From assembly GCF_009729555.1 (NCBI RefSeq), contig NZ_WODC01000005.1, forward strand, positions 62,001 through 126,000: 64,000 bases of DNA, written 5' to 3'. The notes under the pieces are model-generated. The model made no database searches, had not been told where the DNA came from, and was given only the letters and a program-made list of their open reading frames with translations. Origin of the DNA: Pseudodesulfovibrio alkaliphilus. Its GTDB lineage: Bacteria > Desulfobacterota > Desulfovibrionia > Desulfovibrionales > Desulfovibrionaceae. This document shows positions 4,409 to 23,088 of the stretch, in pieces (the stretch's first letter is position 1; the number at the start of each line of letters is the position of its first letter). Position numbers and translations under genes: made by a program.

Positions 4409-4434
4409 TCCCGCCCCTGCATCAGTGACACCCC

Positions 4435-4470
4435 AGCCCGGAGCGCGTCAGCGCTCCGGGCTTTCGCGGT
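4435..4470 (+). terminator. Intrinsic terminator after rplS
   Basis: A perfect 12-bp stem, AGCCCGGAGCGC with GCGCTCCGGGCT, closes on loop GTCA and runs into TTTCGCGGTTT. It ends the rpsP-rplS run before rnhB. Confidence 0.85.
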
Positions 4471-4555
4471 TTGCGCCCCGGTCGATGTCTCCGGCGGGGG
4501 GCGAGGGCCATACTTGCCCCTTCTCTTTTTGCGTCAAATGAGGCACATCCCCTGC

Positions 4556-5188: not shown

Positions 5189-5242
5189 CCCGATGCCTGC
5201 CGGTGCTGGCGTCCCATATCCCTCTGTGCTAGCCTGCAATCC

Positions 5243-7445: not shown

Positions 7446-7460
7446 TCAGAGCAGGCTTGC

Positions 7461-8012: not shown

Positions 8013-8042
8013 GCGTCCACAGCGGGACAGCCCGGAGCACAC

Positions 8043-8843: not shown

Positions 8844-8892
8844 TTTTTGGTACAATCCGACATAGAAAGAAGTGTCAAACAAGCAGGTGGTC

Positions 8893-9198
8893 ATGACCGA
8901 GACAAACCAGAGTACGGTCGGGGAGCAGGGGGAGTATCTCTCCCGGCAGGTGGTCGTTGCCAACGAGCACGGGCTCCACGCCCGCCCGGCCGGGAAACTC
9001 GCCCAACGCGCTCAGGGTTTTGCGGCGCAGATACGCATCGTTCTCGACGAGCAGGAGGTGGACGCCAAGTCCATCCTCGACGTGCTGACATTGGCCGCCG
9101 GGCCCGGCGACGTGCTGGAGATCCGCGCCACGGGAGCCGACGCCGCCCAGGCTGTGGAGGCTCTTGAAACGCTGTTTCACAAAAGGTTCAACGACTAG
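8893..9198 (+). CDS. ptsH: Phosphocarrier protein HPr
   Basis: Small phosphocarrier between enzyme I and EIIA. The active-site histidine is in NEHGLHARPAGKL. The second conserved site reads DAKSILDVLTL, so a Ser46 equivalent is present. From ATG 8893 it has 101 residues, with about 15 extra residues before the HPr core. A GTG at 8872 would add seven residues; AGGTGG just before 8893 favours the later start, though the spacing is short. ptsI starts at the base after its stop. Confidence 0.93.
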   Translation: MTETNQSTVGEQGEYLSRQVVVANEHGLHARPAGKLAQRAQGFAAQIRIVLDEQEVDAKSILDVLTLAAGPGDVLEIRATGADAAQAVEALETLFHKRFND

Positions 9199-10983: not shown

Positions 10984-11076
10984 AACATCTGCGGGCGGCC
11001 GGAACAGCCGGACCCGGCACGGCCGGAGCCGCGCACAGGCGCACCGATGCGCCCTCCAAGGAACAGATACCGACCC

Positions 11077-11556
11077 ATGGCAAAGAAAAAAACGACCACC
11101 GCGCCGAACACCATCGGCACCAACAAACAGGCCAAGCGCCTCTATGAAATCCTCGAAACCTTTGAGGCGGGCATTTCCCTGCTGGGCAGCGAGGTCAAGT
11201 CACTGCGCGGGGGCCACGTCTCCTTCAAGGACGGCTATGTCCAGTTCCGCGACGGCTCGGCCTTTCTCGTGGGCGTCCACATCGCCCCGTACGAGAAGAC
11301 CGGCGAGTTCGACCAGCATGACCCGGAGAGGCCGCGCCGACTCCTGCTGCACAAGCGGGAAATCCTCGTGCTGCGGGCCAAGACCGAGCAGAAGGGCCTG
11401 ACCGTCATCCCCATGAAGATGTACTTCAGCCGCGGCAAGGTCAAAGTGCTGATCGGCCTTGGCAAGGGCAAGAACGTCCACTCGCGCAAGCAGGATCTCA
11501 AGGACCGCGACATAGCCCGCGACACCGCCCGCCAACTGGCCGACCACCGAGGCTAG
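11077..11556 (+). CDS. smpB: SsrA-binding protein SmpB
   Basis: Partner of tmRNA in rescue of stalled ribosomes. It has 159 residues from the ATG at 11077. [29 protein letters not shown] is nearly family consensus in short pieces ([21 protein letters not shown]), and LLLHKREI and [16 protein letters not shown] near the end fit. An in-frame ATG at 11047 lacks support. I looked for the tmRNA gene just downstream and did not find it. Confidence 0.96.
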
Positions 11557-11707
11557 CCGGCAGGGAAATGGCCGCCTGCGCTCCCGGGCAAAGGGCGCGG
11601 GTTCGAACCGTTGCGGAACACGTTCACAAAGGGACGCATATCCGAGGTTCGGCCAAGGTGGAGTCCCTGACGGGGCGAATCGATCCCCTGTGTACCCAAA
11701 GCATGGC

Positions 11708-11738
11708 GCGGCCTTGAGCGCATTTCCGCTCTGGCCGC
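11708..11738 (+). terminator. Stem-loop, possible smpB terminator
   Basis: GCGGCC pairs with GGCCGC, and the inner stem GAGCG/CGCTC closes on CATTTC. There is no T-run, so it may slow or protect the smpB transcript end rather than act as a classical terminator. Confidence 0.4.
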
Positions 11739-11825
11739 TTACCCCTGTCTGCATGGTTCGTTCTTCCGATGACCGGCCCGCGAAAAGACAGGCATGGCTC
11801 CCGGCGAACGGGTGGGTTGTCCTGT

Positions 11826-11854
11826 TTGACTTTGAAAGTCATTTTCACTATTCT
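11826..11854 (+). promoter_or_regulatory. Promoter with Fur-box-like operator for the AraC-type regulator
   Basis: TTGACT at 11826, a 17-bp spacer and TATTCT at 11849 form a good sigma-70-like promoter. The spacer contains the palindrome TGAAAGTCATTTTCA at 11833-11847. It differs at one position from the Desulfovibrio Fur consensus as I recall it (TGAAAATNATTTTCA). Fur bound here would block RNA polymerase, so the regulator gene is predicted to be repressed when iron is plentiful. Confidence 0.72.
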
Positions 11855-11916
11855 GCAAGATCATCGCGGGCACTGGGTGGAAGAATTATTTCATTGCCGA
11901 GGGGAGGGGTGCGTCA

Positions 11917-12873
11917 ATGCAGATGACTGTCGCCAATTGCGGGCCGACCGAGGGGTTGCCGGGAACCTGCCGTTCCCTTCTGGAGGCAGGGATGGCCGCC
12001 CCGGTTCGCCGGTTTTCCCTGCGGACCGATCTTGATGTGTTCTTTTGGGAGTGCGCGGTCAAGCAGCCGCTCTGTTTCTCGGTCGCCTTTGACGCCCCGG
12101 TGCTGCGTTTCAGCTTCGCCATCGAAGGGGAGAGCGTCTCGGACGCCATGAACCAGGAAAGCGTTGTGCGGAGCCGGGGGCGCTACGAGATCCGGTTCTT
12201 TCCCGCCACGGGCGGGACGATTGCGCTCAAGGCGAGGCAGAATCATCGCTGGGTGGATGTGGTGCTCAACCCGTCGTTTCTGGAGGTGGCACTGGCCAGC
12301 GAGGCCTGCAGCCTGCCGGAACCGCTCCTGCAGCTGGTCCGGTGCGAGGCCGACTCCATGCCCGTACTCAGTCGCGCCATGAACCCGGAACAGTTTGTCG
12401 CTGCCTCGCAACTGGCCCAGTGCCCATACACGGGCGCGGCCCGCACTCTTTATCTGAAGAGCAAGACCCTCGAACTGCTGTCCCATGTTCTGGCCGAGCA
12501 GTCGCCGCGGCCATGCCGGACGCGTCTGAGCTCCTATGAAATCGAATGCCTGCGAAAGGCCAGGGAACTCCTGACCGCCAGCCTCGAAAACCCGCCCGGC
12601 CTGCGACAGCTGGCCCAGAGCGTCGGTCTGAACGAAACCAAGCTCAAGACCGGATTCAAGGCCCTGTTCGGGCAGACCGTCTACGGGTATTTCCGCGCCT
12701 ACAGGGTCGACCTGGGCCGTCGAAGGTTGCTTGAGAGCGCCGCCACGGTCAGCGAGGTGGCCAGCAGCGTGGGCTACACCAATGTCAGCCACTTCTGCGC
12801 GGCGTTCAAGGACAGGCACGGCGTAACCCCATATCGCTACCGCAAGGACAACGCGTTTTTCACTGCCTCCTGA
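11917..12873 (+). CDS. AraC family transcriptional regulator, PchR-like
   Basis: DNA-binding regulator of 318 residues. The C-terminal AraC domain (about residues 215-312) has both helix-turn-helices: LRQLAQSVGLNETKLKTGFK and VSEVASSVGYTNVSHFCAAF, followed by GVTPYRYRK. The N-terminal ligand domain is not a sugar-type cupin I recognise and resembles siderophore-responsive PchR-type regulators only in general layout. AGGGGAGGGG lies upstream of the ATG. It is transcribed from a promoter with a Fur-box-like site and faces into the GTPase/TonB/ABC operon. By analogy to PchR/YbtA it is probably the activator of that operon; ligand unknown. Confidence 0.85.
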   Translation: MQMTVANCGPTEGLPGTCRSLLEAGMAAPVRRFSLRTDLDVFFWECAVKQPLCFSVAFDAPVLRFSFAIEGESVSDAMNQESVVRSRGRYEIRFFPATGGTIALKARQNHRWVDVVLNPSFLEVALASEACSLPEPLLQLVRCEADSMPVLSRAMNPEQFVAASQLAQCPYTGAARTLYLKSKTLELLSHVLAEQSPRPCRTRLSSYEIECLRKARELLTASLENPPGLRQLAQSVGLNETKLKTGFKALFGQTVYGYFRAYRVDLGRRRLLESAATVSEVASSVGYTNVSHFCAAFKDRHGVTPYRYRKDNAFFTAS

Positions 12874-12907
12874 CCCAGGCCGTTCTCGCCGACTCCCCCG
12901 CATCGGG

Positions 12908-12949
12908 TGTATTTTTTTCGCCCAGGGGTGGTCTTTTTTTACCCGCCAG
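12908..12949 (+). promoter_or_regulatory. Two T-tract direct repeats, possible AraC-type binding sites
   Basis: Two similar half-sites, each TG followed by a seven-T tract and a C-rich CGCC(C)AG end, start at 12908 and 12929. They lie 21-22 bp apart, i.e. on the same face of the helix. AraC-family activators typically bind such tandem direct repeats upstream of their target operon. No consensus for this regulator is known to me. Confidence 0.4.
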
Positions 12950-12962
12950 CTAGGTTGCGTGT

Positions 12963-12991
12963 GTCCTGGTACGTGCTCCCAGGACTTTTTT
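12963..12991 (+). terminator. Intrinsic terminator upstream of the GTPase-TonB-ABC operon
   Basis: GTCCTGG pairs with CCAGGAC and six Ts follow directly. It is a classical terminator for the AraC-type gene 90 bp upstream. It would act as an attenuator if the operon promoter lies upstream of it. Confidence 0.8.
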
Positions 12992-13004
12992 CAGGCTGTC
13001 TGAG

Positions 13005-13019
13005 TGATAAAGAGTTTCA
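13005..13019 (+). promoter_or_regulatory. Weak Fur-box-like site before the GTPase gene
   Basis: TGATAAAGAGTTTCA matches the remembered Fur consensus at 11 of 14 informative positions. Its TGATAA could serve as a -10 element, with a poor -35 (AGGACT) 18 bp upstream. It is much weaker than the site at 11833. Confidence 0.3.
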
Positions 13020-13039
13020 ATTTCAACAACGGAATGGTC

Positions 13040-13741
13040 ATGAAAACAGTAACCGTAGCAGGTGCGCCCAGCGCAGGAAAGACCGCAGTGATCCTTCACC
13101 TGATCCGTCAACTGGTCAAGGAGGGCAGGCGCTGCGCCGTGGTCAAGTTCGACACCCTTGGGACCTCCGACGACCGGATCTACCGCGACAGGCTCGGCAT
13201 ACCGGCCATCCAGGGGCTTTCGGACTATCTGTGCCCCGATCACTACTTTGTCTCCAACTTCGAGGAGGCATACCGCTGGGGGCGTATGCGAGAAGCCGAT
13301 TTCCTTTTCATGGAAACAGCCGGGCTTTGCTATCGCTGCGCTCCTCATGTGGACGGGGTTCCGGCCGTGACGGTCATCGACAACCTGGGCGGTATGGAGG
13401 CCCCGCGCAAGATGGGGCCAGCCTTGACGCTGGCGGACGTGGTTGTGGTCACCAAGAGCGATCTCGTCTCCCAGGCCGAGAAGGAGGTCTTCGCCCACCG
13501 GGTCAACCAGGTCAATCCGTCAGCCCGCGTTCTGCACGTCAACGGACTCACGGGCACAGGGACACTGCCCCTGCGACGGCTGGCCGAAACCTGGGGCCAC
13601 ATGGAGGACGCTGAAGGTGCCTCGCTACGTTATTCCATGCCCGCGTCCATCTGTTCCTACTGCACGGGGGAAACGCGCATCGGCAAGCGCTTCCAGTCGG
13701 GCAACGTGGAAAAACTGCTGCTTGAGGAGTGCTGCGCATGA
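13040..13741 (+). CDS. UreG/HypB-like metal-associated GTPase
   Basis: G3E-type P-loop NTPase of 233 residues. Motifs are VAGAPSAGKTAV (P-loop), FLFMETAGLC (G3 region) and VVVTKSDLV (G4). It is cysteine-rich at likely metal sites: CYRC right after the G3 motif, CSYC near the C-terminus and a terminal CC. Known relatives (HypB, UreG, CobW) use GTP to deliver or insert a metal. There is no urease or NiFe-hydrogenase accessory gene nearby. Instead it opens an operon for TonB and ABC uptake, so it may handle or release the imported metal or metallophore. ATG 13040 follows GGA; 13034 and GTG 13004 are alternatives. It overlaps the next gene by 4 nt. Confidence 0.8.
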   Translation: MKTVTVAGAPSAGKTAVILHLIRQLVKEGRRCAVVKFDTLGTSDDRIYRDRLGIPAIQGLSDYLCPDHYFVSNFEEAYRWGRMREADFLFMETAGLCYRCAPHVDGVPAVTVIDNLGGMEAPRKMGPALTLADVVVVTKSDLVSQAEKEVFAHRVNQVNPSARVLHVNGLTGTGTLPLRRLAETWGHMEDAEGASLRYSMPASICSYCTGETRIGKRFQSGNVEKLLLEECCA

Positions 13742-14496
13742 GTATCGAGACTGTCACCATTCTCGCCGGATTCGACAAAGAGGGCCGGGCCGACAAAGTG
13801 GACCGGGTGGATCTGCGTCCTGGCGACTCCCTGGCCCTGGTCGGCCCCACCGGATCGGGCAAGAGCGAACTGCTGTCCGATGTCCAGCAGGCGGCCTGCC
13901 AGGACACCCAGACCGGCCGGACCATTCTGGTCAACGGCGCGCCTTTGGCCGATCTGCCCGCCGGGCTGGTCGCGACCCTTTCCCAGAAGACCAACTTTGT
14001 CATGGACGCCACGGTGGAGGAGTTCATCCTCCTGCACGCCGAGAGCAAGGGGCGCGACGGACAGGCCCTGCTCGATCCGCTCCTTGCCATGACCAACTCC
14101 CTGTGCGGCGAGCCGATCCGGGCCGAGATGTCGCTGCAGGTCTTGAGCGGCGGGCAGTCCCGCGCCCTGATGATCGCGGACATCGCCTTGCTGTCGGACA
14201 CGCCCATCGTGCTCATCGACGAGGTCGAGAACGCCGGAATCCACAAGTTCAAGGCCCTTGAGGTGCTGGCCGGTCGAGGCAAGGTGGTGGTCACCGCCAC
14301 CCATGACCCGGTTCTGATCCTGATGAACCAGACCCGGCTTGTCATGCGCAACGGGGGCATGGCCGCCCTGCTGCGCTCAAGCGAGGAGGAACGCGAGTGC
14401 GCCGAGGAGTTGAAACGCATGGACAGTACGCTCATGGAGGTCCGCGAGACCCTGCGCATGGGCAAAATTTTGACATCACGGGAGATGACGGCATGA
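13738..14496 (+). CDS. ABC-type ATPase without an adjacent permease gene
   Basis: ATP-binding cassette protein of 252 residues. Walker A is GPTGSGKS near residue 40, the signature is LSGGQS, Walker B is PIVLIDEVENAG and the switch histidine is in VVVTATHD. Walker B is followed by VENAGI rather than the usual transporter D-loop. The C-terminal 40 residues are charged and helical. It overlaps both neighbours by 4 nt (ATGA). Its partners are a GTPase and a signal-less solute-binding-like protein, so it may not be a transport ATPase. A role in moving or remodelling a metal complex in the cytoplasm is speculative. Confidence 0.75.
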   Translation: MSIETVTILAGFDKEGRADKVDRVDLRPGDSLALVGPTGSGKSELLSDVQQAACQDTQTGRTILVNGAPLADLPAGLVATLSQKTNFVMDATVEEFILLHAESKGRDGQALLDPLLAMTNSLCGEPIRAEMSLQVLSGGQSRALMIADIALLSDTPIVLIDEVENAGIHKFKALEVLAGRGKVVVTATHDPVLILMNQTRLVMRNGGMAALLRSSEEERECAEELKRMDSTLMEVRETLRMGKILTSREMTA

Positions 14497-15386
14497 CCAC
14501 ACGATCTGTTTACCTGGCCATCGCGCCAAACATCCTGCGCCGGACAGTGCAGGACCTGGCCCGGCTCAACCTTTCGCTGGATCTCGTTCCCCCGCAGACG
14601 CACCAGGAGATGCTCGACTTCTCCAAAAACTACGGACACGGCGAGGGAACGGTGCCGGGGTTGACGCTGTGCGCCTACCCGGAATTCGTCCGAAACCTGC
14701 TGCGGCTTCAGAAGACCGGAATGCTTGCCCCGCTGCCGGACTCCCTGCCGCCCATGCGCCGCGAGCTGACTTCCATCGGCATGGCCGAGCCATCCAGCTA
14801 TTTCCGGGTGGTGGGGGTCGTGCCCTTTGTCATTGCCGCCGCCAGGAGCGTCAGTCCGCCCATCGAGGATTGGGAGGACCTCTGCCGCCCGGATGTCTGC
14901 GAATCCATCGCGGTTCCGCCCCACGACACGCCTCTGCCCGCCCTCTTTGACACGATGATGACCTCCCTTTGCGGCGAGCGGGCTGCCAGGGCCATTGCCG
15001 CCAAGAACACCGACCACACCCCCCTCGACATCAACAAGCACCTGGATGCCGGGAACTTCCTCGCCGGGGTGAGCATCCCGGCCTTCAGCCGCAATTTCCG
15101 CGAGGGCAACGGGTACATGGTCTGGCCGCGGTCAGGCGCGTGGCCGGTGCCCCTTGTGGCCTGCGTGCGCAAGGACGCGAGCCCGGACGCCATGGAGTTT
15201 CTGCATTTCCTGTTTTCAAACGAGTACCAGCGCTTTCTGTCGGAGTCCGGCTCGCTCATCCCCGCGGTGGAGGGCATCCCGTGGTTCGAGGAGATGGACA
15301 GGGCCGACGGACGGTTGCTCTGGCCCGGCTGGGATGCGCTGGTCTCGCTTGCCATACCCGACAATGCTCAAGGAGGTAGAGAATGA
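14493..15386 (+). CDS. Solute-binding-protein-like protein lacking a signal peptide
   Basis: Protein of 297 residues whose sequence style (GMLAPLPDSLPP, FLHFLFSNEYQRFLSESGSLIPA near the end) resembles extracellular solute-binding proteins of ABC iron/spermidine type. The N-terminus MTTRSVYLAIAPNILRR has no hydrophobic export signal, and the translated start is fixed by the 4-nt overlap with the preceding ATPase gene. It would therefore stay in the cytoplasm. AAGGAGG inside its last codons is the ribosome site of the TonB receptor gene. Function is not known; a cytoplasmic metallophore-binding partner of the GTPase and ATPase is one possibility. Confidence 0.6.
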   Translation: MTTRSVYLAIAPNILRRTVQDLARLNLSLDLVPPQTHQEMLDFSKNYGHGEGTVPGLTLCAYPEFVRNLLRLQKTGMLAPLPDSLPPMRRELTSIGMAEPSSYFRVVGVVPFVIAAARSVSPPIEDWEDLCRPDVCESIAVPPHDTPLPALFDTMMTSLCGERAARAIAAKNTDHTPLDINKHLDAGNFLAGVSIPAFSRNFREGNGYMVWPRSGAWPVPLVACVRKDASPDAMEFLHFLFSNEYQRFLSESGSLIPAVEGIPWFEEMDRADGRLLWPGWDALVSLAIPDNAQGGRE

Positions 15387-17380
15387 AACGGCGATTCGTC
15401 GTCCCGCTGCTGGCCGCGTTTATCCTGACGCTTGGAGTGGTTCCGGCCTCGGCAAGGGACGTTACCCTGAACAAGGTCATCGTCTCGGCGCGAGGTGTTG
15501 ACAGCATGCAGTCCCAGACTCCGGGCGGAACAGGCGTGGTGGAGAAGGAGGAGATACTCCTCGCCCCCAAGGCGAGCATCGCCGACTCCATCTCGCGCAT
15601 TGCCGGTGTCTCGCGCAGCGGCGAGTCCCCGTGGGGTCAGGATGTGTCCATCCGGGGCCTGTCCGGGGCCTCGGTGGTCGTGCTCATCGACGGCATGCGC
15701 CTGAACACGGCCACGGAGATCAACGCCCGGCTCGGTTTCATCAACCCCCTGGACGTGGAGAGGGTGGAAGTGCTCAAGGGCCCTGCCAGCGCACTGTACG
15801 GCACCGGCTCGACCGGCGGCGTCATCAACATCATCACCAAGAAGGGGGCGTTCACCCCGCAACAGGAGCTGGGCGGTGAAATGATCGCCGGCTGGTCCAC
15901 CAATCCGCAGGGGGGCGACGGGTATCTGCGCTCGGTCCTCAGCCGCGAGAACTTCTGGCTCCAGGTTTCCGGCGGCCTGCGCGACCACTCCAGCTACTAC
16001 GGAGGCGATGCCACCCGAATGCCCAACAGCCAGTTCGACGACATCTATCTGCGCATGGCGGGCGAGGCGCGATTTAGCGACCTGTTCACCGGGGCCTTCC
16101 AGGTCATGAACATCGAGGCGAGCAACGTGGGCATTCCCGGCGGATCAAGCACCATGCCCCAGACCGCGCCCATCCGCTATCCCCGCACATCCAATTTCCT
16201 GGCCAGCGGCGATCTCTCCTTCACCCCGGAAGGCGGGACCTTCAAAGAGGTGTCGCTCAACCTGTATTACATCAAGAACGAGCGCAAGGTGGAGATCGAC
16301 AATCCCACTCCGGCGGTTCGGCTGATCAACCCCCAGGCGCTGCACGAGACCTTGGGCGGCAAGCTCCAGACCGAGATGGAGTTCGGCGATCACTCCATTG
16401 TCGCCGGGACCGACGCCTGGAGCTGGCACATGACCTCCAAAAGGCTGCGCTACACTACCGCGGGTCCGGTGCTGAAAGATCAGCCCACGCCCAACACCAG
16501 GCAGACTTCCGCAGGCGTCTTTGTCGAGGACGACTGGAAGCTCGACGACATGTTCACCCTCAACCTCGGCGGCAGGCTGGACAGGGTGCAGGCCACCAAC
16601 AAGGAAAACGCCGACCATTCCGGCTCCACCAAGGTCCAGGCCGGGTGGAACGCCCATGCCGGGCTGACCTGGAACCCGGCGGAGCGTTGGTCCCACACCT
16701 TTCTCGCGGCCACCAGCTACCGGGTGCCCGACATTCTCGAACGATTCAAGAACATCAACCTCGGCGGCGGCATGACCAGCGTGGGCAACCCGGATCTGGA
16801 CCCCGAGAAGTCCTACTTCTTCGAGTACGGGCTGCATTACGTCTCTGATTCCTTCAGCGCGTCGGGCTCGGTCTATGCCAACTTCCTGACCGACTACATC
16901 GCCGAGACGCTGGACACCCCGACCCAGTACCGCATGGCCAACATCGGGGAGGCGCGCATCTACGGATCGGAGCTGGAGGCAGACTGGCGCTTCGCCCGGT
17001 CCTGGAGCCTGTACGGCAACATCGCCCTTGCCAACGGGCGCGACATGCGAAACAAGGAAGCTCTGCGCAGCATCGCGCCCGTCAACGGTCTGGGCGGCAT
17101 CAGGTATTCGAACGACAGCGGCTTCTGGGCGCGTGTCGAAACCCCCTGGGCCCTGGGGCAGAGCGAGGTGCCGGGCGGGGTCCGCAGAACCGACGCCTGG
17201 ATCACGGTCAACACGGCGGCGGGCTATGGGTTTGACTGGTCCCGGCTGCATCACGAGGTGTCCGTGAGCATCAACAATCTCTTCGACAAGAAGTACAAGA
17301 ACTATCTGGCCAACTCCCGGAGCATTGAGCTGCTTGAGCCGGGCATCAACGGATCGATCAACTACGCGGTCACGTTCTAG
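15383..17380 (+). CDS. TonB-dependent outer-membrane receptor
   Basis: Outer-membrane gated channel of 665 residues. A signal peptide (MKRRFVVPLLAAFILTLG...ASA) is followed by the plug domain, with ISRIAGVSRSG, VSIRGLSGASVVVLIDGMR and VEVLKGPASALYGTGSTGGVINIIT. The beta-barrel ends in INYAVTF with a terminal phenylalanine. The likely cargo is a metal chelate. No TonB/ExbBD genes are nearby. An ideal AAGGAGG precedes the ATG, which overlaps the upstream stop by 4 nt. Placement behind a Fur-box-controlled regulator favours a ferric chelate, but vitamin B12 or another metallophore is not excluded. Confidence 0.92.
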   Translation: MKRRFVVPLLAAFILTLGVVPASARDVTLNKVIVSARGVDSMQSQTPGGTGVVEKEEILLAPKASIADSISRIAGVSRSGESPWGQDVSIRGLSGASVVVLIDGMRLNTATEINARLGFINPLDVERVEVLKGPASALYGTGSTGGVINIITKKGAFTPQQELGGEMIAGWSTNPQGGDGYLRSVLSRENFWLQVSGGLRDHSSYYGGDATRMPNSQFDDIYLRMAGEARFSDLFTGAFQVMNIEASNVGIPGGSSTMPQTAPIRYPRTSNFLASGDLSFTPEGGTFKEVSLNLYYIKNERKVEIDNPTPAVRLINPQALHETLGGKLQTEMEFGDHSIVAGTDAWSWHMTSKRLRYTTAGPVLKDQPTPNTRQTSAGVFVEDDWKLDDMFTLNLGGRLDRVQATNKENADHSGSTKVQAGWNAHAGLTWNPAERWSHTFLAATSYRVPDILERFKNINLGGGMTSVGNPDLDPEKSYFFEYGLHYVSDSFSASGSVYANFLTDYIAETLDTPTQYRMANIGEARIYGSELEADWRFARSWSLYGNIALANGRDMRNKEALRSIAPVNGLGGIRYSNDSGFWARVETPWALGQSEVPGGVRRTDAWITVNTAAGYGFDWSRLHHEVSVSINNLFDKKYKNYLANSRSIELLEPGINGSINYAVTF

Positions 17381-17411
17381 CGCCGCCTCGGCGGAAAGGT
17401 CTTTGGTTCAC

Positions 17412-18410
17412 ATGAAGAAACGACAACTGGCGCTGGTGGCCCTCCTGTTCGCTCTTGCGGCCTGGGGCGGTCTGCTGCTGGTGTCTCAGGCGAGGCAGTC
17501 CGCCCCCGTGGGGGGGCGGACCATCCTGGCCGTGCACACCTCTGGCCAGGCCACGACCCCGCAGATGCCTCTGTGGCTGGCCCTGGCCAAAGGCGAACTC
17601 GGCTTCGAGCCCGACATCCGGTACTGGAAGAACCTCGACGACCTGCGCGGCTCCCTGCTGGCAGGGCAGGGCGATATATGGGTGGGACACATAGACGGCT
17701 TTGCCCAGGCGGCTCTGCGCGGTGCGCCCGTGCGCCTTGTCTGCGTCACCGGGTGGAAGAAGTTCTTCTTTCTTACCAGCCGCGCCGACATCGCCTCCTT
17801 TGAGGACATCCTTCGGCTGCCCGCCCACACCGAGATAGCCTCGGCTCCGCCGCATTCTCCCGCCGTGGCGGTACTTCGCGCCCTGGAGGGGGCGGGTCTG
17901 CCCCGGTTCAATTACGCCCAGCACGAGGCGGGCCAGCTCTCCCTCAAGGCGATGCGGGGAGACGCAGACCTGTTGCTCCTGCCCGAGCCGCTGGTGACCG
18001 CCCTGCTGGCAAAGATGCCGGAGCTGCGCGTGGTGGCCAGCGTGGAGGAGGAATACGGCAGACTGACCGGCGGGGAGCCGTTGCTCCCCATCGCGGGTAT
18101 TGCGGTCAATACCGCAACCCTGGCCCGGCACCCCGGCCTGGACAGGCTGCTTGAGGAAGCCCTGCGCAGGCAGGAGCCCGCCCTGCTCATAAACCCCGAG
18201 GAGGGTCTGGCCGCGCTGCCCGCCGAGTTCGACCAGTTCATCGACCCGGAGATTGTCAGGGCGTCCCTGGCCCGCGATGTCATCCGCGTCCGCTCGGCCG
18301 CCGAGTCCGAGGCCATGATCCGGGACTATCTGGGCATGGTCTTTCCCGAAAGCGTCGGCCCTGACGGTGTCATTGCGCTCCCGGAGGGGTTCTTCGGAGG
18401 GACTCGATGA
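17412..18410 (+). CDS. ABC transporter substrate-binding protein, NitT/TauT (SsuA-like) family
   Basis: Periplasmic binding protein of 332 residues with an N-terminal signal or anchor (KKRQLALVALLFALAAWGGLL). The body has the two-lobe pattern of the nitrate/sulfonate/taurine family (PLWLALAKGELGF, LLAGQGDIWVGHIDGFAQA, EPLVTALLAKMP). It overlaps the permease gene by 4 nt and completes a three-part importer. Family membership alone does not give the substrate. Position after a TonB receptor suggests it picks up the imported complex in the periplasm. Confidence 0.85.
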   Translation: MKKRQLALVALLFALAAWGGLLLVSQARQSAPVGGRTILAVHTSGQATTPQMPLWLALAKGELGFEPDIRYWKNLDDLRGSLLAGQGDIWVGHIDGFAQAALRGAPVRLVCVTGWKKFFFLTSRADIASFEDILRLPAHTEIASAPPHSPAVAVLRALEGAGLPRFNYAQHEAGQLSLKAMRGDADLLLLPEPLVTALLAKMPELRVVASVEEEYGRLTGGEPLLPIAGIAVNTATLARHPGLDRLLEEALRRQEPALLINPEEGLAALPAEFDQFIDPEIVRASLARDVIRVRSAAESEAMIRDYLGMVFPESVGPDGVIALPEGFFGGTR

Positions 18411-19162
18411 AGTGGCTGCCGGCGGTGGTGTCCCTGGTCATTGGCGTGGGGGGGTGGTGGGCCGCATCGCTGGCCTTTGGCTCGGCGCTTGTGCCTGCTC
18501 CGGCCACGGTGGGAAGGGAGCTTTGGCACATGGCCCTGGAGGCAGAGACCTGGGCCACCCTGGCCATCACGGTGGCCCGTGGGCTTGCCGGGCTGATGAT
18601 GGCCCTGGCCTGCGCCCTGGTGCTCGGCGTGGCCGCCGGAGCCAGCCCCGCGGCCATGCGCCTGATCACCCCGCTGGTGGCGGCCCTGCAATCGTGCCCG
18701 CCCATCCTGTGGATCACCTTGCTCATGGTCTGGGTCGGCACCGGCTCCACCGTGGCCGTGGCCGTGGTCTTCGCCTCGGTCTTTCCGCCCCTGTTCGCCA
18801 ACATCGCCCAGGGGTGCGCGGCCCTGGACAGGCGGCTGTTCGATATGGCCCGGCTGTATCATGTGCCGCCGATCCGTCTGCTTCGGCGGGTGGTGCTGCC
18901 CGGCCTCACCCCCTATCTGCTGGCCGGGCTGTCCTATGCGGCCGCCACCAGCTGGAAGGTGACGGCGGTGGCGGAGTTTCTCGGCTCGTCCACCGGCATA
19001 GGCGCCAAGGTGTTCTGGGCCTACCGTATGCTCGAAATTCCCAGGCTCTTCGCCTGGGCGGGCATCATCATTCTGCTGGGCGTCGCCCTGGAGCTGCTTG
19101 TCATCGCCCCCTTGCGCAAGTCCGCAGAGACCTTTACCGGAAAGATTCGGGAGCAGGCATGA
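18407..19162 (+). CDS. ABC transporter permease, NitT/TauT (SsuC-like) family
   Basis: Inner-membrane permease of 251 residues with about six hydrophobic segments. The cytoplasmic coupling motif is visible in RLYHVPPIRLLRRVVLPGLTP, and the N-terminal half contains ARGLAGLMMALACALVLGV. Both ends overlap neighbours by 4 nt. It partners the binding protein at 17412 and the ATPase at 19159. Confidence 0.88.
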   Translation: MKWLPAVVSLVIGVGGWWAASLAFGSALVPAPATVGRELWHMALEAETWATLAITVARGLAGLMMALACALVLGVAAGASPAAMRLITPLVAALQSCPPILWITLLMVWVGTGSTVAVAVVFASVFPPLFANIAQGCAALDRRLFDMARLYHVPPIRLLRRVVLPGLTPYLLAGLSYAAATSWKVTAVAEFLGSSTGIGAKVFWAYRMLEIPRLFAWAGIIILLGVALELLVIAPLRKSAETFTGKIREQA

Positions 19163-19755
19163 TAGCCATTGAAAACGTGAACTTCGCCATCGGCGGAACC
19201 TCCCTGATCCAGAACACGACCCTGCGTGTGGCGGCCCGCGAGGCCGTCTGCCTGTGCGGCCCGTCCGGGGTCGGCAAGACCACGCTCCTCGAGATAGCCG
19301 CCGGGTTGACAGCCCCGGACAGCGGCACGGTCTCCCTCGATTCCGCCCGCATCGGCTGCGCCTTTCAGGACGACATCCTCGTCCCCTGGCTGACCGCCCT
19401 TGACAACCTGCTTCTGGTCATGACCGGACCCTTGGCACAGGCAAGGGCCGGGGCGGGGGGCTGGCTGGACAGGTTCGGCCTGGACCCTGATATGCGCCCA
19501 CCCCAAATGAGCGGCGGCATGCGCAGACGGCTCTCCCTGGCCAGGGCCTTTGCCGTGGAGCCGGAAATCCTGCTGCTGGACGAGCCCTTCGCCTTTCTCG
19601 ACGATCAATGGCAGGCCCGGACGGCCATGCACGTCGAGGCCCATCGGCAAGGGGGCGGCGCCGTGCTCCTGGTCAGCCACCAGGAGCGGCACCTCGACGC
19701 CTTCCAGTGCCGGACCGTGTTCATAGACCACGGCCCCATCAAACTCTCTGCCTGA
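19159..19755 (+). CDS. ABC transporter ATP-binding protein, NitT/TauT (SsuB-like) family
   Basis: ATPase of 198 residues, slightly short for the family. Walker A is CGPSGVGKTT, the signature is MSGGMRRRLSLARAF, Walker B is EILLLDEPFAFLD and the switch histidine is in LLVSHQERH. The Q-loop reads FQDDILVPWLT, typical of SsuB/TauB types. It is the last gene of the operon that begins at 13040 and is followed by an intrinsic terminator. Confidence 0.9.
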   Translation: MIAIENVNFAIGGTSLIQNTTLRVAAREAVCLCGPSGVGKTTLLEIAAGLTAPDSGTVSLDSARIGCAFQDDILVPWLTALDNLLLVMTGPLAQARAGAGGWLDRFGLDPDMRPPQMSGGMRRRLSLARAFAVEPEILLLDEPFAFLDDQWQARTAMHVEAHRQGGGAVLLVSHQERHLDAFQCRTVFIDHGPIKLSA

Positions 19756-19849
19756 AAAACCACCTGCCCCGGAACCCCGAGCAGACGCCCGAGGGCCAGG
19801 ACCCGCACAAGAAAGCCGTTCAGGCAGACCTCAACCCCTGAACACGTAT

Positions 19850-19880
19850 GGGCTGGAGCAAAAGTTCCAGCCCTTTCAGT
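19850..19880 (+). terminator. Intrinsic terminator of the TonB/ABC operon
   Basis: GGGCTGGA pairs with TCCAGCCC over an 8-nt loop (GCAAAAGT), followed by TTTCAGTTTGT. It lies 95 bp after the last ABC gene. Confidence 0.75.
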
Positions 19881-19954
19881 TTGTCTACAGCTCGAAAGAC
19901 TGACAGAGATCCTCCCCTTACGACAACAACCCGAGGAACCTGAGAACGCACAAA

Positions 19955-20885
19955 TAAAAAAAGACTCTTTTTATATAATTCATGTTGACAGCCAAACTCA
20001 AAATACATATTTTGAGTTCTGCATGATCGTTTAGTTCACCGAAAAAGGAGAAAGAAAATGGCGAAAACAATTTCGATAAGTATCCCAGAAGAGCTCTTCA
20101 CTAAACTTCGGAATACCAACCAATCTTTTAAAATATCGCAAATATGCCAAAGAGCCCTGGAGTCTGAGATTATGGAGAAAGAAACTTTAGCAAAGGCTCG
20201 TAAGTTAGGCATCGAAGACGGCGACAAAGCTAAAAGCACTCTCACAAACTCCTCCAGGATGGAAATTAAATCTGCATTTGAGAGGTCTTCCCAAAAATGG
20301 AGTAGTGAGGAGTTGTACAAGTTAGCCGACAAGCTCCAATCATCACTATCATCTGAAGATTTGGAAATGCTCCAACCACGATTTAACCAAATATTCGATG
20401 GTGAACTGATCTTAAGCGACTGGATGAAACACAGATCAGGAAAAACGATTCAAGACAAATGGAGTGAGGTAGCATGGGCCTATGTCGAAGGTACCTACCT
20501 AGGTCTGACTCAGAAGCATCTTCCCAAAGAAGCACCGTCTGTCAAAGAGTCCCAGGCAGTGCTTGCAGAAATCCAAAGAGTCCAAACCAGAGTTCCCAGG
20601 TGGTTCAATAACCCAAGCCAAATTAACTCAAGAATATTGATTGAATTTTTATCTATATCTGACAGCGGTGATAGACATGTCAGCATTGATGAACTGAAAA
20701 AGCAGTGCAAGATAAAGACATTTGATACTAACTTTGCACAAATGAAAATTTTTGGAGAGAGAAATCACGGGAAAGTCTTCGATGTGATAGATGGAAAAGT
20801 TACCCTGTGGTCACCAGTGAAAGATTTTATTAAAATTGAGTTCGATAAATACAAAAAATTAGGATTGTACAGAGATAGTATTCAC
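19955..20885. other. AT-rich islet, probably acquired DNA
   Basis: About 0.9 kb with base and codon use very different from the GC-rich surroundings. It contains a single gene with its own promoter. Composition reverts to GC-rich in the last few codons of that gene. tRNA-Asp and tRNA-Val genes lie 190-380 bp away, a common integration neighbourhood. No integrase, transposase or flanking direct repeat was recognised. Confidence 0.6.
19985..20018 (+). promoter_or_regulatory. Promoter with a perfect palindrome before the RHH-like gene
   Basis: TTGACA at 19985 and TATTTT at 20008 are spaced 17 bp. A perfect inverted repeat, AACTCAAAAT and ATTTTGAGTT around ACAT, covers 19995-20018 and therefore the spacer and the -10. 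A protein bound there would block transcription. The downstream gene encodes a ribbon-helix-helix-like N-terminus, so autorepression is the simplest reading. Confidence 0.65.
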
Positions 20886-20912
20886 CTGACACCGCCGCCC
20901 CTGGCGGGGTAG
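20058..20912 (+). CDS. Hypothetical protein with ribbon-helix-helix-like N-terminus
   Basis: Unrecognised protein of 284 residues. Residues 1-40 (KTISISIPEELFTKLR, then FKISQICQRALESEI) fit a MetJ/Arc-type beta-strand plus helix DNA-binding fold. The middle is helical and charged. The C-terminal part (VSIDELKKQCKIKTF, then VIDGKVTLWSPV) could be a small winged-helix-like domain. GGAGA lies 7 nt before the ATG. Codon use is AT-rich, unlike neighbours, which points to horizontal transfer. The final residues LTPPPLAG are coded by GC-rich sequence, so the original C-terminus may have been lost or replaced. It could be a plasmid- or phage-type regulator; no partner toxin gene is visible. Confidence 0.6.
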   Translation: MAKTISISIPEELFTKLRNTNQSFKISQICQRALESEIMEKETLAKARKLGIEDGDKAKSTLTNSSRMEIKSAFERSSQKWSSEELYKLADKLQSSLSSEDLEMLQPRFNQIFDGELILSDWMKHRSGKTIQDKWSEVAWAYVEGTYLGLTQKHLPKEAPSVKESQAVLAEIQRVQTRVPRWFNNPSQINSRILIEFLSISDSGDRHVSIDELKKQCKIKTFDTNFAQMKIFGERNHGKVFDVIDGKVTLWSPVKDFIKIEFDKYKKLGLYRDSIHLTPPPLAG

Positions 20913-21026
20913 TTACGCGGCTACTCTCGGTTTCCGGTTCCTTGCCTTTCATGATGCCGACCAGAATATCTGGTTCGGCGTCCGTCTTTGGTCAGGGTGG
21001 AATAGTGTGGGGAGCGACTCCCCGCC

Positions 21027-21063
21027 AAAAGAAAAAGGTGGCTAGGATTTTATCCTAACCACC
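21027..21063 (-). terminator. Terminator of the tRNA-Val/tRNA-Asp transcript
   Basis: A 12-bp stem with one mismatch (plus-strand arms GGTGGCTAGGAT at 21037 and ATCCTAACCACC at 21052) is followed on the minus strand by TTTTTCTTTT. It lies 12 bp beyond the 3' end of tRNA-Asp. Confidence 0.8.
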
Positions 21064-21074
21064 TGTTTTCATTC

Positions 21075-21151
<77 letters not shown>

Positions 21152-21193
21152 GCGTCTATATAAAGCGCGTTAAGCGACGCTTTACTGCATTTT

Positions 21194-21269
21194 TGGTAGG
21201 CGGAACAGGGCTCGAACCTGTGACCCTCGGCTTGTAAGGCCGATGCTCTCCCAGCTGAGCTACCCGCCC
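21194..21269 (-). tRNA. tRNA-Val(TAC)
   Basis: 76-nt tRNA including encoded CCA. The D-arm is AGCTCAGCTGGGAGAGC, the anticodon loop CTTACAA carries TAC on a TCGGC/GCCGA stem, and the T-arm has GGTTCGAGCC. The acceptor stem GGGCGGG has two G-U pairs. It is the first gene of the two-tRNA transcript. Confidence 0.94.
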
Positions 21270-21281
21270 GCAGGAAACGAG

Positions 21282-21311
21282 TCTTTATCTTGGGCCGGAG
21301 TTTTTTGTCAA
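21282..21311 (-). promoter_or_regulatory. Promoter of the tRNA operon (proximal)
   Basis: On the minus strand TTGACA (21306-21311) and TAAAGA (21282-21287) are 18 bp apart. The -10 lies 13 bp before the tRNA-Val 5' end. Confidence 0.7.
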
Positions 21312-21373
21312 CCGATTTTCGCATCCAGGCGACACGTTTGCTCAAGGCCCCTCTTCCGCGTTCAGCGAAGGGG

Positions 21374-21402
21374 ATACTGCCCATCGGCGGTCTTTTTGTC
21401 AA
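21374..21402 (-). promoter_or_regulatory. Possible second tRNA promoter (distal)
   Basis: Minus-strand TTGACA (21397-21402) and CAGTAT (21374-21379) are 17 bp apart. The -35 context repeats that of the proximal promoter (GTTGACAAAAA in both), which suggests tandem promoters. Confidence 0.4.
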
Positions 21403-21450
21403 CGGATTTTGGTAAAAATTGATTCGGTGGCAACTCGTTGGATTTGTGAG

Positions 21451-22809
21451 CTATTTTGTGGACAGGACGACGCGGTTGCCTTTGCGGGGGAGCCAGGCCA
21501 GGGGCAGGCCGCGATAGTAGAGCCCTACAGGGCCGCTGCCCGGTGCATGGGGCAGGCTCTGTCCGGCCACCAGCCTTTCCAGGTCCGCAATGCCATCGAC
21601 GTTCAGGGCGTCGTCGGGAGTGGCCGACTCGAGGGGCGGGAGGAGAATCCGGGCTGCGCCATCGGGTTTGAAATGCCCGCCAGAGTCCTTCGGAGCGCGG
21701 GATGCGTTCCGTTCTTCCCTGCGGCGTGCGGCGCGGTCTGTTGCCCGCAGCTCCTGGCGCATCGGGCCAGCCACCTTGCCCAGGGCAAACCCCTGCCAGC
21801 GCAGGGATCGGGGTATCCTGGCCAGGGCCTGGGCATGGAGGAAAAACGCCTTGCCTCCAAAGTCGTACACCTCGCCCGGTGGCAGCGCCGCCATGTTGAG
21901 GGCCTGGGGTCCATGCAGACGCGAGAAGTCCAGCCGGGTGCCCGGCAGGGGGGAGGTGGGTGCGTCCGGCAGGATCGTGGCGCACGGCGCACCCGGTTTG
22001 CGGAAGCGGGCGAGGAAAAATCCCTGCCCCTCGGAATCGTCGGCCACGCGAAGCACCCCCTTGAGGCCGGGCAGGGCAGGGGCGGCGAAAACGAAGCCGG
22101 GCGGCGGGTCGAGCGGGACAAGCTCCAAATCAAGGGAGTCGATGGCCCAGGCCACCTGGGCCTCGTTTTCCTCCTCATTGGTGGTGCAGGTGGAATAGAG
22201 CAGGTGCCCGCCGGGTGCGAGCAGGGCCGCGGCCTTGGCCAGGAGCGCCCTTTGCAACGTCACGAGGGGGCCGGTCCTGTCTTCGGACCAAAGGGTCATG
22301 ACGTTGGGATTCTTGTCCACGGTGCCCCAGCCGCTGCACGGGGGATCGAGCTGGATGAATTCCCACGAGCCGGTGGCAAAGGGCAGATCCTGGGCCTTGG
22401 ACTTGACCGTGGCCGTATTGACGGCTCCGGTGCGGCGCAGGTTGGCCCGCAGGATGCCCAGCCTGTCGGCCGACGGTTCGCACGCCAAGACAAACCCCTC
22501 GCGGCCCACCAGACGCGAGAGCAGGCCGGTCTTGCTGCCCGGCGCGGAACACATGTCCAGAACGCAGGCACCCGGCGGCGGGGCAAGCAGCAGCGGCGGC
22601 AGCATGGAAGAGCGGTCTTGGATGTATATGAGTCCGAACCGGGCCGCCAGACTGTCGCCCAGGGAAAAGGGTTCGTGGGTCAGCCGCCGGGCCAGGGGAT
22701 GAAAGGGCTCGGGCTCAAAGGCGAATCCCTGGCCGTGCAGCAGCGCCTCGACGCGGGGAATGTCGGGGGCGTCGCAGACGAGCCTGAAGGTGCGAAGGGT
22801 GACGGGCAT
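21451..22809 (-). CDS. RsmB/RsmF (NOL1/NOP2/Sun) family RNA cytosine-C5 methyltransferase
   Basis: SAM-dependent m5C methyltransferase of 452 residues. SAM motif ACVLDMCSAPGSKTG is followed by the two family cysteines in LDPPCSGWGTVDKNPNV and LLYSTCTTNEEENE. The C-terminal 150 residues, ending GLYYRGLPLAWLPRKGNRV, resemble the PUA-like tail of RsmF, so 16S rRNA is a likely substrate. The start is the ATG ending at 22809, giving MPVTLRTFRL. A much longer frame continues upstream but overlaps the opposite-strand gene and looks non-coding. The tRNA operon lies just downstream on the same strand. Confidence 0.9.
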   Translation of the reverse strand: MPVTLRTFRLVCDAPDIPRVEALLHGQGFAFEPEPFHPLARRLTHEPFSLGDSLAARFGLIYIQDRSSMLPPLLLAPPPGACVLDMCSAPGSKTGLLSRLVGREGFVLACEPSADRLGILRANLRRTGAVNTATVKSKAQDLPFATGSWEFIQLDPPCSGWGTVDKNPNVMTLWSEDRTGPLVTLQRALLAKAAALLAPGGHLLYSTCTTNEEENEAQVAWAIDSLDLELVPLDPPPGFVFAAPALPGLKGVLRVADDSEGQGFFLARFRKPGAPCATILPDAPTSPLPGTRLDFSRLHGPQALNMAALPPGEVYDFGGKAFFLHAQALARIPRSLRWQGFALGKVAGPMRQELRATDRAARRREERNASRAPKDSGGHFKPDGAARILLPPLESATPDDALNVDGIADLERLVAGQSLPHAPGSGPVGLYYRGLPLAWLPRKGNRVVLSTK

Positions 22810-23088
22810 TGATGTCTCCGGCGGAGGGCTGGGGGAGATTCCCTGTGCGGCCCTTGCCAACAGCGGCAAAAAGCCTGGGAACGGGCCGCCGCCGCGACCC
22901 GGTCCAGCAGGACCAATACCGTCTTGCCCGGGGGGAGGCAACCGCATTAGGGGCTTTGCATCCCGGCCAGGAAACTGGTACAAGTGCCTGCCATACGCTG
23001 CCAAAGGCAGCCGTTGCGCAACAATATCACGGAATGCGGTCCCTGGCCCTGCCGGTTTGCCGCAGCCGCCCCCAGCACGGAGGAATAC

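Follow-up and report, generated by a model that had tools for sequence, protein, structure and literature searches.

How anaerobes release metal from imported chelates is, to our knowledge, poorly known, and the same can be said of the delivery of heterometals to nitrogenase in methanogens and syntrophs. The 64 kb stretch of DNA analysed here (the window) contains, at 13040–19755, an uptake operon of a sulfate-reducing bacterium in which a GTPase and a free ABC ATPase precede a TonB/ABC import route, and the question is what these two soluble NTPases are doing there. With its invariant metal-type ligands the pair is a concrete and easily deleted candidate for both problems, and it may unload imported metal complexes.

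The operon and its import route

Open reading frames called with a simple script, together with the sequence, bear out the proposal of an earlier, sequence-only reading that seven genes are translated almost as one unit. Five of the six junctions are ATGA overlaps, while the sixth, between the receptor and the periplasmic solute-binding protein (SBP), is a 31-base gap. That reading had also divided the operon into three leading genes, for a GTPase, a permease-less ABC ATPase and a signal-less SBP-like protein, and four trailing genes for an outer and inner membrane uptake route, and Pfam matches and hydropathy agree (Table 1). An AraC-family gene lies upstream, outside the span of the earlier reading, and its homologues stand either before the operon or divergent to it in the other loci that were compared for Fur boxes at AraC promoters.

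Table 1. Features of the uptake operon and its upstream region, in window positions.
Feature	Position	Strand	Basis or remark
Fur-box-like palindrome TGAAAGTCATTTTCA	11833..11847	+	69 bases spacing to AraC start codon
AraC-family regulator, FoxR/PchR-like by position	11917..12873	+	HTH_18 72.4 bits
Second, weaker Fur-box-like site TGATAAAGAGTTTCA	13005..13019	+	upstream of GTPase
UreG/HypB/CobW-class GTPase with CPDH, CxRC and CSYC motifs	13040..13741	+	PF02492 (cobW) 49.7 bits
Soluble ABC ATPase without own permease	13738..14496	+	PF00005 (ABC_tran) 47.2 bits
SBP-like protein, predicted cytosolic	14493..15386	+	PF13343 (SBP_bac_6) 64.0 bits
TonB-dependent outer-membrane receptor, heme/siderophore type	15383..17380	+	Pfam barrel and plug, 145.1 and 93.2 bits
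Periplasmic SBP of NitT/TauT-like importer	17412..18410	+	signal-like N terminus
ABC importer permease	18407..19162	+	PF00528 (BPD_transp_1) 68 bits
ABC importer ATPase	19159..19755	+	PF00005 (ABC_tran) 88.4 bits

The importer resembles known systems at a distance. The TonB receptor scores 231.8 bits against the heme receptor model TIGR01785 (cut-off 316.85) and lies under the cut-off of each NCBIfam model among the 25 listed. The periplasmic SBP has a clear N-terminal hydrophobic segment and no Pfam match. For the permease the best NCBIfam models are SaoP (94.5 bits, cut-off 295) and SsuC (78.1 bits, cut-off 347), both under cut-off. The Sao organometal system was considered as the family and rejected: besides the SaoP score, the GTPase is a weak match to the CobW-related selenoprotein model (33.5 bits, cut-off 180), so that both likenesses are far under cut-off.

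The GTPase, its ATPase partner and the third protein

By PF02492 the GTPase belongs to the CobW/HypB/UreG NTPase superfamily (gathering cut-off 20.7), and structure comparison finds UreG and HypB as its best solved folds, in agreement with the UreG/HypB-like GTPase read from the sequence. It has in common with these nickel-insertion GTPases the fold, the P-loop and a Cys-Pro-x-His-type motif; UreG carries a CPH motif. It differs in its additional invariant CxRC and CxxC, in scores far under the curated cut-offs (39.4 bits against 121.2 for HypB, TIGR00073, and 32.1 against 204.2 for UreG, TIGR00101), and in its genetic partner, which is an ABC ATPase and not UreEF or HypA. The GTPase has a COG-style name that suggests a nickel chaperone module, which we regard as highly improbable; its nearest folds are nickel GTPases and relatives are labelled “Ni2+-binding GTPase”, also in PMC12068725, but such labels reflect family resemblance, the window has no NikR-type site at three or fewer mismatches, and an unsystematic reading of neighbourhoods brought no nickel genes to notice.

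Six residues of the GTPase, C65, H68, C97, C100, C205 and C208, are kept in all 140 GTPase loci, and the invariance of five cysteines and a histidine suggests metal ligands. Of the cysteine motifs noted earlier, CYRC and CSYC are invariant across the family as CxRC and CxxC, while the terminal CC is not common to the relatives, being found in one of 14 other aligned rows, within a longer C-terminal tail. The conservation of CPDH and CxRC is partly by construction, since one set of loci (the best 80 of 364) was found with patterns containing them; C205 and C208 were part of no search pattern, and the remaining loci were found by profile, with neighbourhoods taken for part of the profile hits. 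Removal of short duplicates (L001–L008, L089–L104 and L131) left 149 locus stretches, and discarding hits below 150 bits and copies that end in an identical C terminus gave the 140 distinct GTPases, with L174–L193 in no count. The CxxC pairs could instead hold an Fe–S cluster or zinc and not form a transfer site.

In 139 of the 140 loci an ABC ATPase is encoded no more than two genes away from the GTPase and in the same direction, and the sole exception ends at a contig edge. Defined as a GTPase with CPDH, CxRC and CxxC together with a same-strand ABC ATPase, the module is present in the window and 138 other loci. The two protein trees agree (mirror-tree r 0.852, where 300 permutations gave 0.095 at most), and the pair is old and co-inherited in many anaerobic bacteria and archaea.

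The third protein was described from the sequence as lacking an export signal, and this holds in the window, in its homologues and with an earlier start. Whereas the operon's two exported proteins reach a best 14-residue hydropathy of 2.41 and 2.57, the third protein reaches 0.89, and 29 homologues range from 0.34 to 1.06. No upstream start with a signal peptide was found (the longest reading, from GTG 14397, has a hydropathy of 0.32), and M1 is invariant in 12 aligned homologues. The protein is thus predicted to be cytosolic, not exported. Its predicted model (pLDDT 92.2) has FutA, FbpA and MctA as nearest solved folds, with TM-scores to the query of 0.61–0.72 among the matches listed and 12–18% identity. 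These ferric- and metal-citrate-binding SBPs are exported, unlike the window protein of the same fold. In an alignment read by eye the third protein lacks the tyrosine pair, which we take to be the ligand pattern of canonical ferric-binding proteins.

Three architectures can be distinguished. Type I, that of the window, is GTPase–ATPase–cytosolic SBP with importers; type II has a diverged SBP, and its locations include the neighbourhood of vanadium- and iron-only-nitrogenase genes; type III is ATPase–GTPase–Fe–S protein in coenzyme M clusters. The 11 sequences nearest to the window GTPase in the tree comprise ten of type I and the unassigned L015, itself nearest type I, while type III forms a clade separate from types I and II. 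The module genes stay together in relatives: among 60 genomes, one of them that of the window, seven have a close type I SBP, and the same seven carry the periplasmic SBP of the importer. An eighth genome, G022, has a weak SBP match and carries a type II module. Neither of the two findings that the earlier reading named as refuting it, separation of the genes in relatives and a signal peptide from an upstream start, was made.

Fur-type sites and a proposed unloading route

The metal handled by the operon is suggested by its promoters. The delta-proteobacterial Fur consensus is TGAAAATNATTTTCA according to PMC545781, and a site matching it lies upstream of the operon, before the AraC gene. This site, TGAAAGTCATTTTCA, has one mismatch and is the only such site in the 64 kb (0 of 100 shuffles); it agrees at 13 of 14 positions, as none of 300 local shuffles did. 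It is the best site of delta-proteobacterial type in the window and is found again in each of the five loci from the same genus. More widely, Fur boxes stand upstream of AraC genes in eight other stretches, which amount to seven loci because L009 and L106 are on one contig, with seven of the eight at 12/14 or better and one at 11. The second site, TGATAAAGAGTTTCA, has two mismatches to TGAWAATNATTWTCA, a type with three matches in the window against 0.07 expected, two of them at the operon. At the GTPase promoter a clear site is present in three of the five same-genus loci (L107, L109 and L110, at 12/14); L105 has a weaker one equally far from the gene, and L009 has none.

Fur-like sites at a local p ≤ 0.015, a bar set after the scan and applied to the best of four consensus variants, are found in 12 of 47 type I operons and one of 77 type II/III loci (Fisher 3e-5, with kinship ignored and close kin counted apart; four of the 12 belong to the window's genus). 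At a plain bar of 12/14 positions the ratio is 12/47 to 4/77 (P 0.002). These comparisons omit 15 loci with no assigned third gene, a clear site being present in two of them, L015 and L038. Among the 35 type I loci with no clear site several adjoin molybdenum genes; the window's genus contributes L105 and L009 to the 35, which lack a clear site at the GTPase but have one at the AraC gene. For other regulators, no Zur-type site was found at the operon promoters, and a riboswitch scan of window stretch 8000–24000 gave nothing at the operon.

Judged from these sites the operon is apparently iron-regulated, and its metal is most likely iron. We favour, with a probability of about 0.48, a Fur/AraC-controlled uptake of an iron complex combined with a three-protein cytosolic unloading module. 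The TonB receptor and NitT/TauT-like importer would carry a siderophore, heme or similar iron chelate into the cytoplasm, where the cytosolic SBP would catch it; the soluble ABC ATPase would supply the energy to open or release the bound ligand, and the GTPase, with its Cys and His residues, would take over the metal and hand it on, as UreG, HypB and CooC-type NTPases do with nickel. Iron as the cargo, a physical complex of the proteins and the direction and chemistry of transfer are what we infer. The earlier suggestion of a cytoplasmic module that receives, strips or inserts imported metal is partly supported: the UreG/HypB fold, the ferric/metal-citrate-binder fold, the Fur boxes and the nitrogenase and Mod neighbours of homologous modules speak for a metal role, though stripping or insertion would be the module's presumed and not its observed activity; nickel, cobalt or molybdenum as the metal here is not supported, as the regulatory sites point to iron.

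SBPs serve as sensors in other systems, and the cytosolic SBP might similarly sense the complex while the two NTPases open and close the importer or pass a signal to AraC, with no handling of metal. Tight translation of the operon as one unit would suit such a switch, but the invariant cysteines and histidine of the GTPase suggest metal ligands, and type III modules stand beside coenzyme M genes, in L063 with no importer directly adjacent, so that we consider it distinctly unlikely.

A near precedent for the favoured iron-unloading operon is a Fur/FoxR-controlled pqqL–ABC–TonB cluster proposed for siderophore transport in Desulfovibrio (Rodionov 2004, PMC545781). As described, the cluster resembles the window in having an AraC regulator, Fur boxes, a TonB system and ABC components, and unlike it begins with a peptidase (pqqL); the words “GTPase” and “GTP-binding” do not occur in the main text of the article.

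Molybdenum, nitrogenase and coenzyme M neighbourhoods

The unloading reading also draws on neighbouring genes: downstream of type I modules are importers of several kinds, and directly upstream of the module at L016 is FeoB (446 bits, cut-off 316). It is conceivable that the module handles molybdenum, tungsten or vanadium everywhere, the TonB route of the window importing a molybdenum chelate and the module feeding heterometal to cofactor assembly. In support, L039 has the gene run GTP–ABC–SBP–ModD–ModA–ModB–ModC, L036 has ModABC and an HTH–PBP gene, and ModD and ModA adjoin L047 and L032 respectively; a MoeA-like gene (218.9 bits, under cut-offs) lies beside L126, a molybdenum aldehyde oxidoreductase adjoins the operon in the relative G021, and the riboswitch scan of 14 type I loci found one Moco riboswitch, beside L031 and downstream of its operon. 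Around type II modules are vnf/anf, NifV and Mod genes, one module lying within the vnf/anf region of a genome of 5,751,492 bases.

In a proximity test over 69 genomes, in which a genome could score only if the contig of the module also carried a member of the family, and with counts and distances copied by hand, modA is within 25 kb of a module in six genomes against 1.94 expected (P 0.015), with P 0.07 at 12 kb and no enrichment at 6 kb (1 against 0.47, P 0.37). For nifV, whose counts include members under the curated cut-off, three genomes against 0.34 expected have it within 6 kb (P 0.005), with P 0.03 at 12 kb and no enrichment at 25 kb (3 against 1.42, P 0.17). The feoB family is not near modules, with at least one genome within 25 kb against 2.78 expected. 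The families were picked after examples had been seen. Neighbour labels were confirmed by curated models, except those given by eye (NnrS of L040, the Opp-like genes of L032, NifA-like genes, ModB, ModC and LeuD, and AnfG, AnfO and AnfH at L188 and L190) and those kept under cut-off, namely, besides the MoeA-like gene of L126, NifB of L117 (340.0, cut-off 343.65), NifX of L114 and L138 (98.2 and 42.4, cut-off 112) and a split NifV piece of L134 (197.3, cut-off 462.9).

Against a molybdenum role in the window stands the finding that its promoters carry Fur boxes and not ModE sites. No Desulfovibrio-type ModE site (CGGTCACG-N14-CGTGACCG) was found at them; the window has three matches with three mismatches (0.86 expected), and the one inside the operon, at 16863, falls in a coding region and is no more than chance would give. 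With the shifting distances of the modA and nifV enrichments and the post hoc choice of families, we hold this reading to be unlikely.

Type III modules have cysteate synthase, ComD, ComE and MMP16 as neighbours (see also PMC12068725). An ATPase and a GTPase gene beside coenzyme M biosynthesis in methanogens, with a role stated to be unknown, were reported in 2025 (PMC12068725). They belong, by position in the same clusters, to the same two families, the Fe–S protein being COG2000 according to that article, and differ from the window in clade, in having this protein instead of an SBP and in having no importer in the unit. The earlier claim that no pathway with this set had been described is thus nearly right: our literature search, with subscription journals mostly outside its scope, found no description of the bacterial three-gene module, while the ATPase and GTPase themselves had been noted in those clusters.

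These neighbours could mean organosulfur or coenzyme M-like cofactor chemistry, with the operon importing a sulfonate or organometal, and the permease is indeed nearest SaoP and SsuC. Both matches are nevertheless far under cut-off, the TonB receptor is of the heme/siderophore class with Fur-type sites nearby, and type III lies apart from types I and II, all of which makes this reading very unlikely. For the module in the window we do not favour a coenzyme M function, since type III is a separate clade; equally, iron release gives no explanation of the SBP-less modules sited in coenzyme M clusters.

The module proposed to unload iron in the window would also have been plugged onto other importers and metallocofactor pathways, such as molybdenum transport, alternative nitrogenase and the coenzyme M cluster. 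Tentatively, and with doubts outweighing confidence, these would form a new class of soluble two-NTPase machine for unloading metal complexes, in which a cytosolic SBP fold or Fe–S protein works with a free ABC ATPase and the Cys-rich GTPase, serving in anaerobic bacteria and archaea the uptake of iron chelates, the synthesis of coenzyme M and the provision of molybdenum or vanadium for alternative nitrogenases, and replacing siderophore esterases or reductases and NifQ-type molybdenum donors. The pair occurs in uptake operons, in coenzyme M clusters and, in a methanogen amenable to genetics, in the region of the vanadium/iron-only nitrogenase, and a methanogen gene pair listed as of unknown role is now joined to bacterial operons that carry a regulatory clue, Fur.

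Composition of a candidate unloading module

The sequence-only reading of the operon had its gene order and coordinates right: seven genes, joined by ATGA overlaps at five of the six junctions, and the AraC gene upstream is counted with them on grounds of regulation. Pfam and NCBIfam comparisons place the first protein among the CobW/HypB/UreG-class GTPases, identify the second as an ABC ATPase and the third as a PF13343 binding protein, and show that the TonB-dependent receptor is closest to heme/siderophore receptors and the importer is NitT/TauT-like. The same libraries gave no look-alike of a siderophore esterase or ferric-siderophore reductase among the eight unit proteins scanned. No NCBIfam model was reached by the GTPase or, among the best 25 of 114 matches listed, by the ABC ATPase, and the third protein matched none.

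The third protein had been described as lacking an export signal, and this holds; even its longest reading, from a GTG start, adds none. Its N-terminal hydropathy is 0.89 (0.34–1.06 across 29 homologues), where the two exported products of the operon reach 2.41 and 2.57, and its start methionine is invariant in 12 aligned homologues. The protein is therefore predicted to be cytosolic. Its structural model (pLDDT 92.2) best matches the folds of the ferric-binding FutA and FbpA and of the metal-citrate-binding MctA; that of the GTPase (pLDDT 84.1) has UreG and HypB as its nearest folds.

In the mechanism we propose, the binding protein would capture the imported complex, the ABC ATPase would open it or power release, and the GTPase would take over the metal and hand it on. 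What computation shows is the composition of the module, the cytosolic third protein, the conserved metal-type ligands of the GTPase, co-inheritance, and iron-type sites in the window lineage. We put at roughly one in three the chance that the module is a class of its own, a chelate-unloading machine built on two NTPases. The parts are members of known superfamilies and the nearest known kind is the GTPase/ATPase metallochaperones. The curated models seen were not reached by the three proteins except for general Pfam domains, and a literature search found no description of the bacterial module.

Features of the window and of module loci from other genomes
Stretch	Feature	Position
Window	Fur-box match upstream of AraC gene	11833
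Window	AraC gene	11917-12873
Window	Weaker Fur-type site upstream of GTPase	13005
Window	Seven-gene operon	13040-19755
Window	GTG start, longest reading of third protein	14397
Window	Low-GC stretch just past operon	20001-21000
Window	ORF, 284 amino acids, in low-GC stretch	20058-20912
Window	tRNA-Asp and tRNA-Val genes, minus strand	21075-21269
L041	Type I and II modules in one gene run	4340-9733
L152	Type II binding protein with N-terminal DUF1858	8145-9371
L152	ATPase with N-terminal extension	10060-11088
L036	Radical-SAM protein	8184-9977
L107	Aldehyde oxidoreductase	12817-15534
L134	Protein of about 315 amino acids	4810-5757
L176	Protein of about 315 amino acids	15723-16685

Just past the operon the GC content falls to 0.40–0.43 against 0.64 window-wide; the ORF there has no Pfam match at E <= 1e-8, and this stretch, which adjoins two tRNA genes, may have been inserted recently at a tRNA site.

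Co-inheritance and three architectures

Relatives of the GTPase came from a contig scan (best 80 of 364 kept) and from further genomes, of which 15 of 297, 43 of 299 and 93 of 149 had hits at E <= 1e-40, giving 140 distinct loci. At 139 of them the ABC ATPase is no more than two genes away and shares the strand of the GTPase (directly adjacent in 138), and the sole exception is interrupted by a contig end. The GTPase and ATPase trees agree with r 0.852 (maximum 0.095 over 300 permutations), and with 0.90–0.96 inside each type, so the pair is old and co-inherited. C65, P66, D67, H68, C97, C100, C205 and C208 are identical in all 140 GTPases, partly by construction for loci found by pattern.

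The third protein defines three architectures. Type I (47 loci, two also with neighbour cluster c5) is GTPase, ATPase and cytosolic binding protein, followed by importers that were mostly labelled by eye: TonB plus NitT/TauT in the window, elsewhere NitT/TauT alone, FecCD, Opp/Nik-like or ModABC. Many Gram-positive type I loci add a class I methyltransferase. Type II (31 loci) has a diverged PF13343 protein (268–284 bits in the two scanned, one with an N-terminal DUF1858 domain), then the GTPase and a mostly longer ATPase, and type III (47 loci) combines ATPase and GTPase with an Fe-S protein (PF04060 in the two scanned). The third gene was not assigned at 15 loci, several at contig ends. Both trees hold type II (31/31, one foreign) and type III (47/47) together; type I is not one clade in the GTPase tree (best split 26/47) and groups in the ATPase tree (46/47) with a support of only 0.48.

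A Desulfobacteraceae MAG (L041) and a Syntrophomonas MAG (L066/L150) each have a type I and a type II module within a single gene run, a hint that the two types cannot replace each other. There is a link between DUF1858 and hybrid-cluster protein, which adjoins type II at six loci; at L152 the extension of the ATPase resembles this domain without a Pfam match. A radical-SAM protein of about 600 amino acids lies near type I modules at L036, L032, L115 (same contig as L036) and L148, and its C-terminal part looks by eye like a cytosolic FecB/BtuF-type binding domain, with weak similarity to the FecB-like cluster.

Iron-type regulatory sites in the window lineage

The available text of Rodionov et al. 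2004 (PMC545781) derives the delta-proteobacterial Fur box, WTGAAAATNATTTTCAW, and proposes siderophore transport for a Desulfovibrio ABC and TonB cluster controlled by Fur and FoxR (AraC). The top match to this box in the 64-kb window lies just upstream of the AraC gene (one mismatch; 0 of 100 shuffles), and a relaxed scan gave three window matches against 0.07 expected, two at the operon. Eight further stretches, which amount to seven loci, five of them from the genus of the window, have Fur-type sites at their AraC genes that match 11 to 14 of 14 positions, one of these sites perfectly, and upstream of the GTPase at five same-genus loci the match is 12 of 14 in three, 10 in one and 8 in one. 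With a bar of p <= 0.015 in local shuffles, a clear site lies upstream of 12 of 47 type I operons against 1 of 77 of types II and III, with close kin counted apart, and of 2 of the 15 loci lacking an assigned third gene. FeoB lies immediately upstream of the type I module L016.

No ModE, NikR or Zur site, as given in the available text of PMC545781, was found at the window operon promoters. Because Fur-type sites are present and these three absent, iron is the best-supported candidate cargo in the window. Rivals to the unloading mechanism would make the module a sensor-switch, or a nickel chaperone, favoured by UreG and HypB as the folds nearest to the GTPase model and disfavoured by the lack of a NikR site at these promoters.

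Neighbouring genes in other genomes

A third rival has molybdenum as the cargo everywhere. Mod genes lie within about 6 kb of four type I loci (L032, L036, L039, L047), most directly at L039, a run of GTPase, ATPase, binding protein, ModD, ModA, ModB and ModC. Distances to genes of families picked after examples had been seen were counted for the 79 modules of types I and II in 69 genomes. Within 25 kb of a module, 6 genomes have modA (1.94 expected) and at least 1 has feoB (2.78 expected); nifV comes as close as 6 kb in 3 (0.34 expected), two of which are Methanosarcina. There is no enrichment of modA at 6 kb (1 against 0.47) or of nifV at 25 kb (3 against 1.42). This proximity is suggestive, not decisive, of molybdenum elsewhere and, taken with the Fur data, agrees with a module for metal complexes generally rather than for one metal. 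In the relative G021, a molybdopterin-dependent aldehyde oxidoreductase (L107; NF045668, 1621 bits, cut-off 1100) is convergent to the operon.

In a Methanosarcina genome of 5,751,492 bases the type II module stands between a FecCD importer with ModABC and nitrogenase genes: NifH (457.9 bits, cut-off 394.35), VnfD (1025.8, 823.1), VnfG (186.2, 141.7), VnfK (939.5, 873.95) and nitrogenase-E/N-like, NifX-like and LeuD-like genes. Two NifV-like pieces immediately follow its ATPase, and AnfD (1141.4, 873.8) lies some 19 kb off. Two genomes from a single Desulfobacterota family (G246, G202) have type II close to NifH and a NifX-like gene, or to a NifB-like gene and NifV; AnfD (1073.5 and 1053.8 bits, cut-off 873.8), ModA, ModD and a ModE-like gene are found at distances of roughly 12 to 24 kb. 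By similarity to one confirmed member each, hybrid-cluster protein adjoins type II at six loci and an NRAMP transporter at three (two are type II by tree only); a MoeA-like gene adjoins one. Three Methanosarcina-type genomes (L134, L138, L176) encode, in their vnf/NifV region, a conserved protein of about 315 amino acids with no Pfam family over cut-off (one scanned); in L176 the split NifV pair and the FecCD genes are still present but, by eye, no module lies between them.

The last rival is an organosulfur role. The type III locus L063 has cysteate synthase (593.2 bits, cut-off 324.9) on one side, the Fe-S protein, ComD and ComE on the other, and a divergent MMP16 (525.4, 363.95), an order repeated in Methanosarcinales loci. 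In a second setting, of Methanosarcina class (L137, L142, L143, L172), none of the members c7, c13 and c16 of the coenzyme M cluster occurs in the rows seen; there ATPase, GTPase and Fe-S protein adjoin an MMP16-like gene, and in three of the four a radical-SAM gene is also adjacent.
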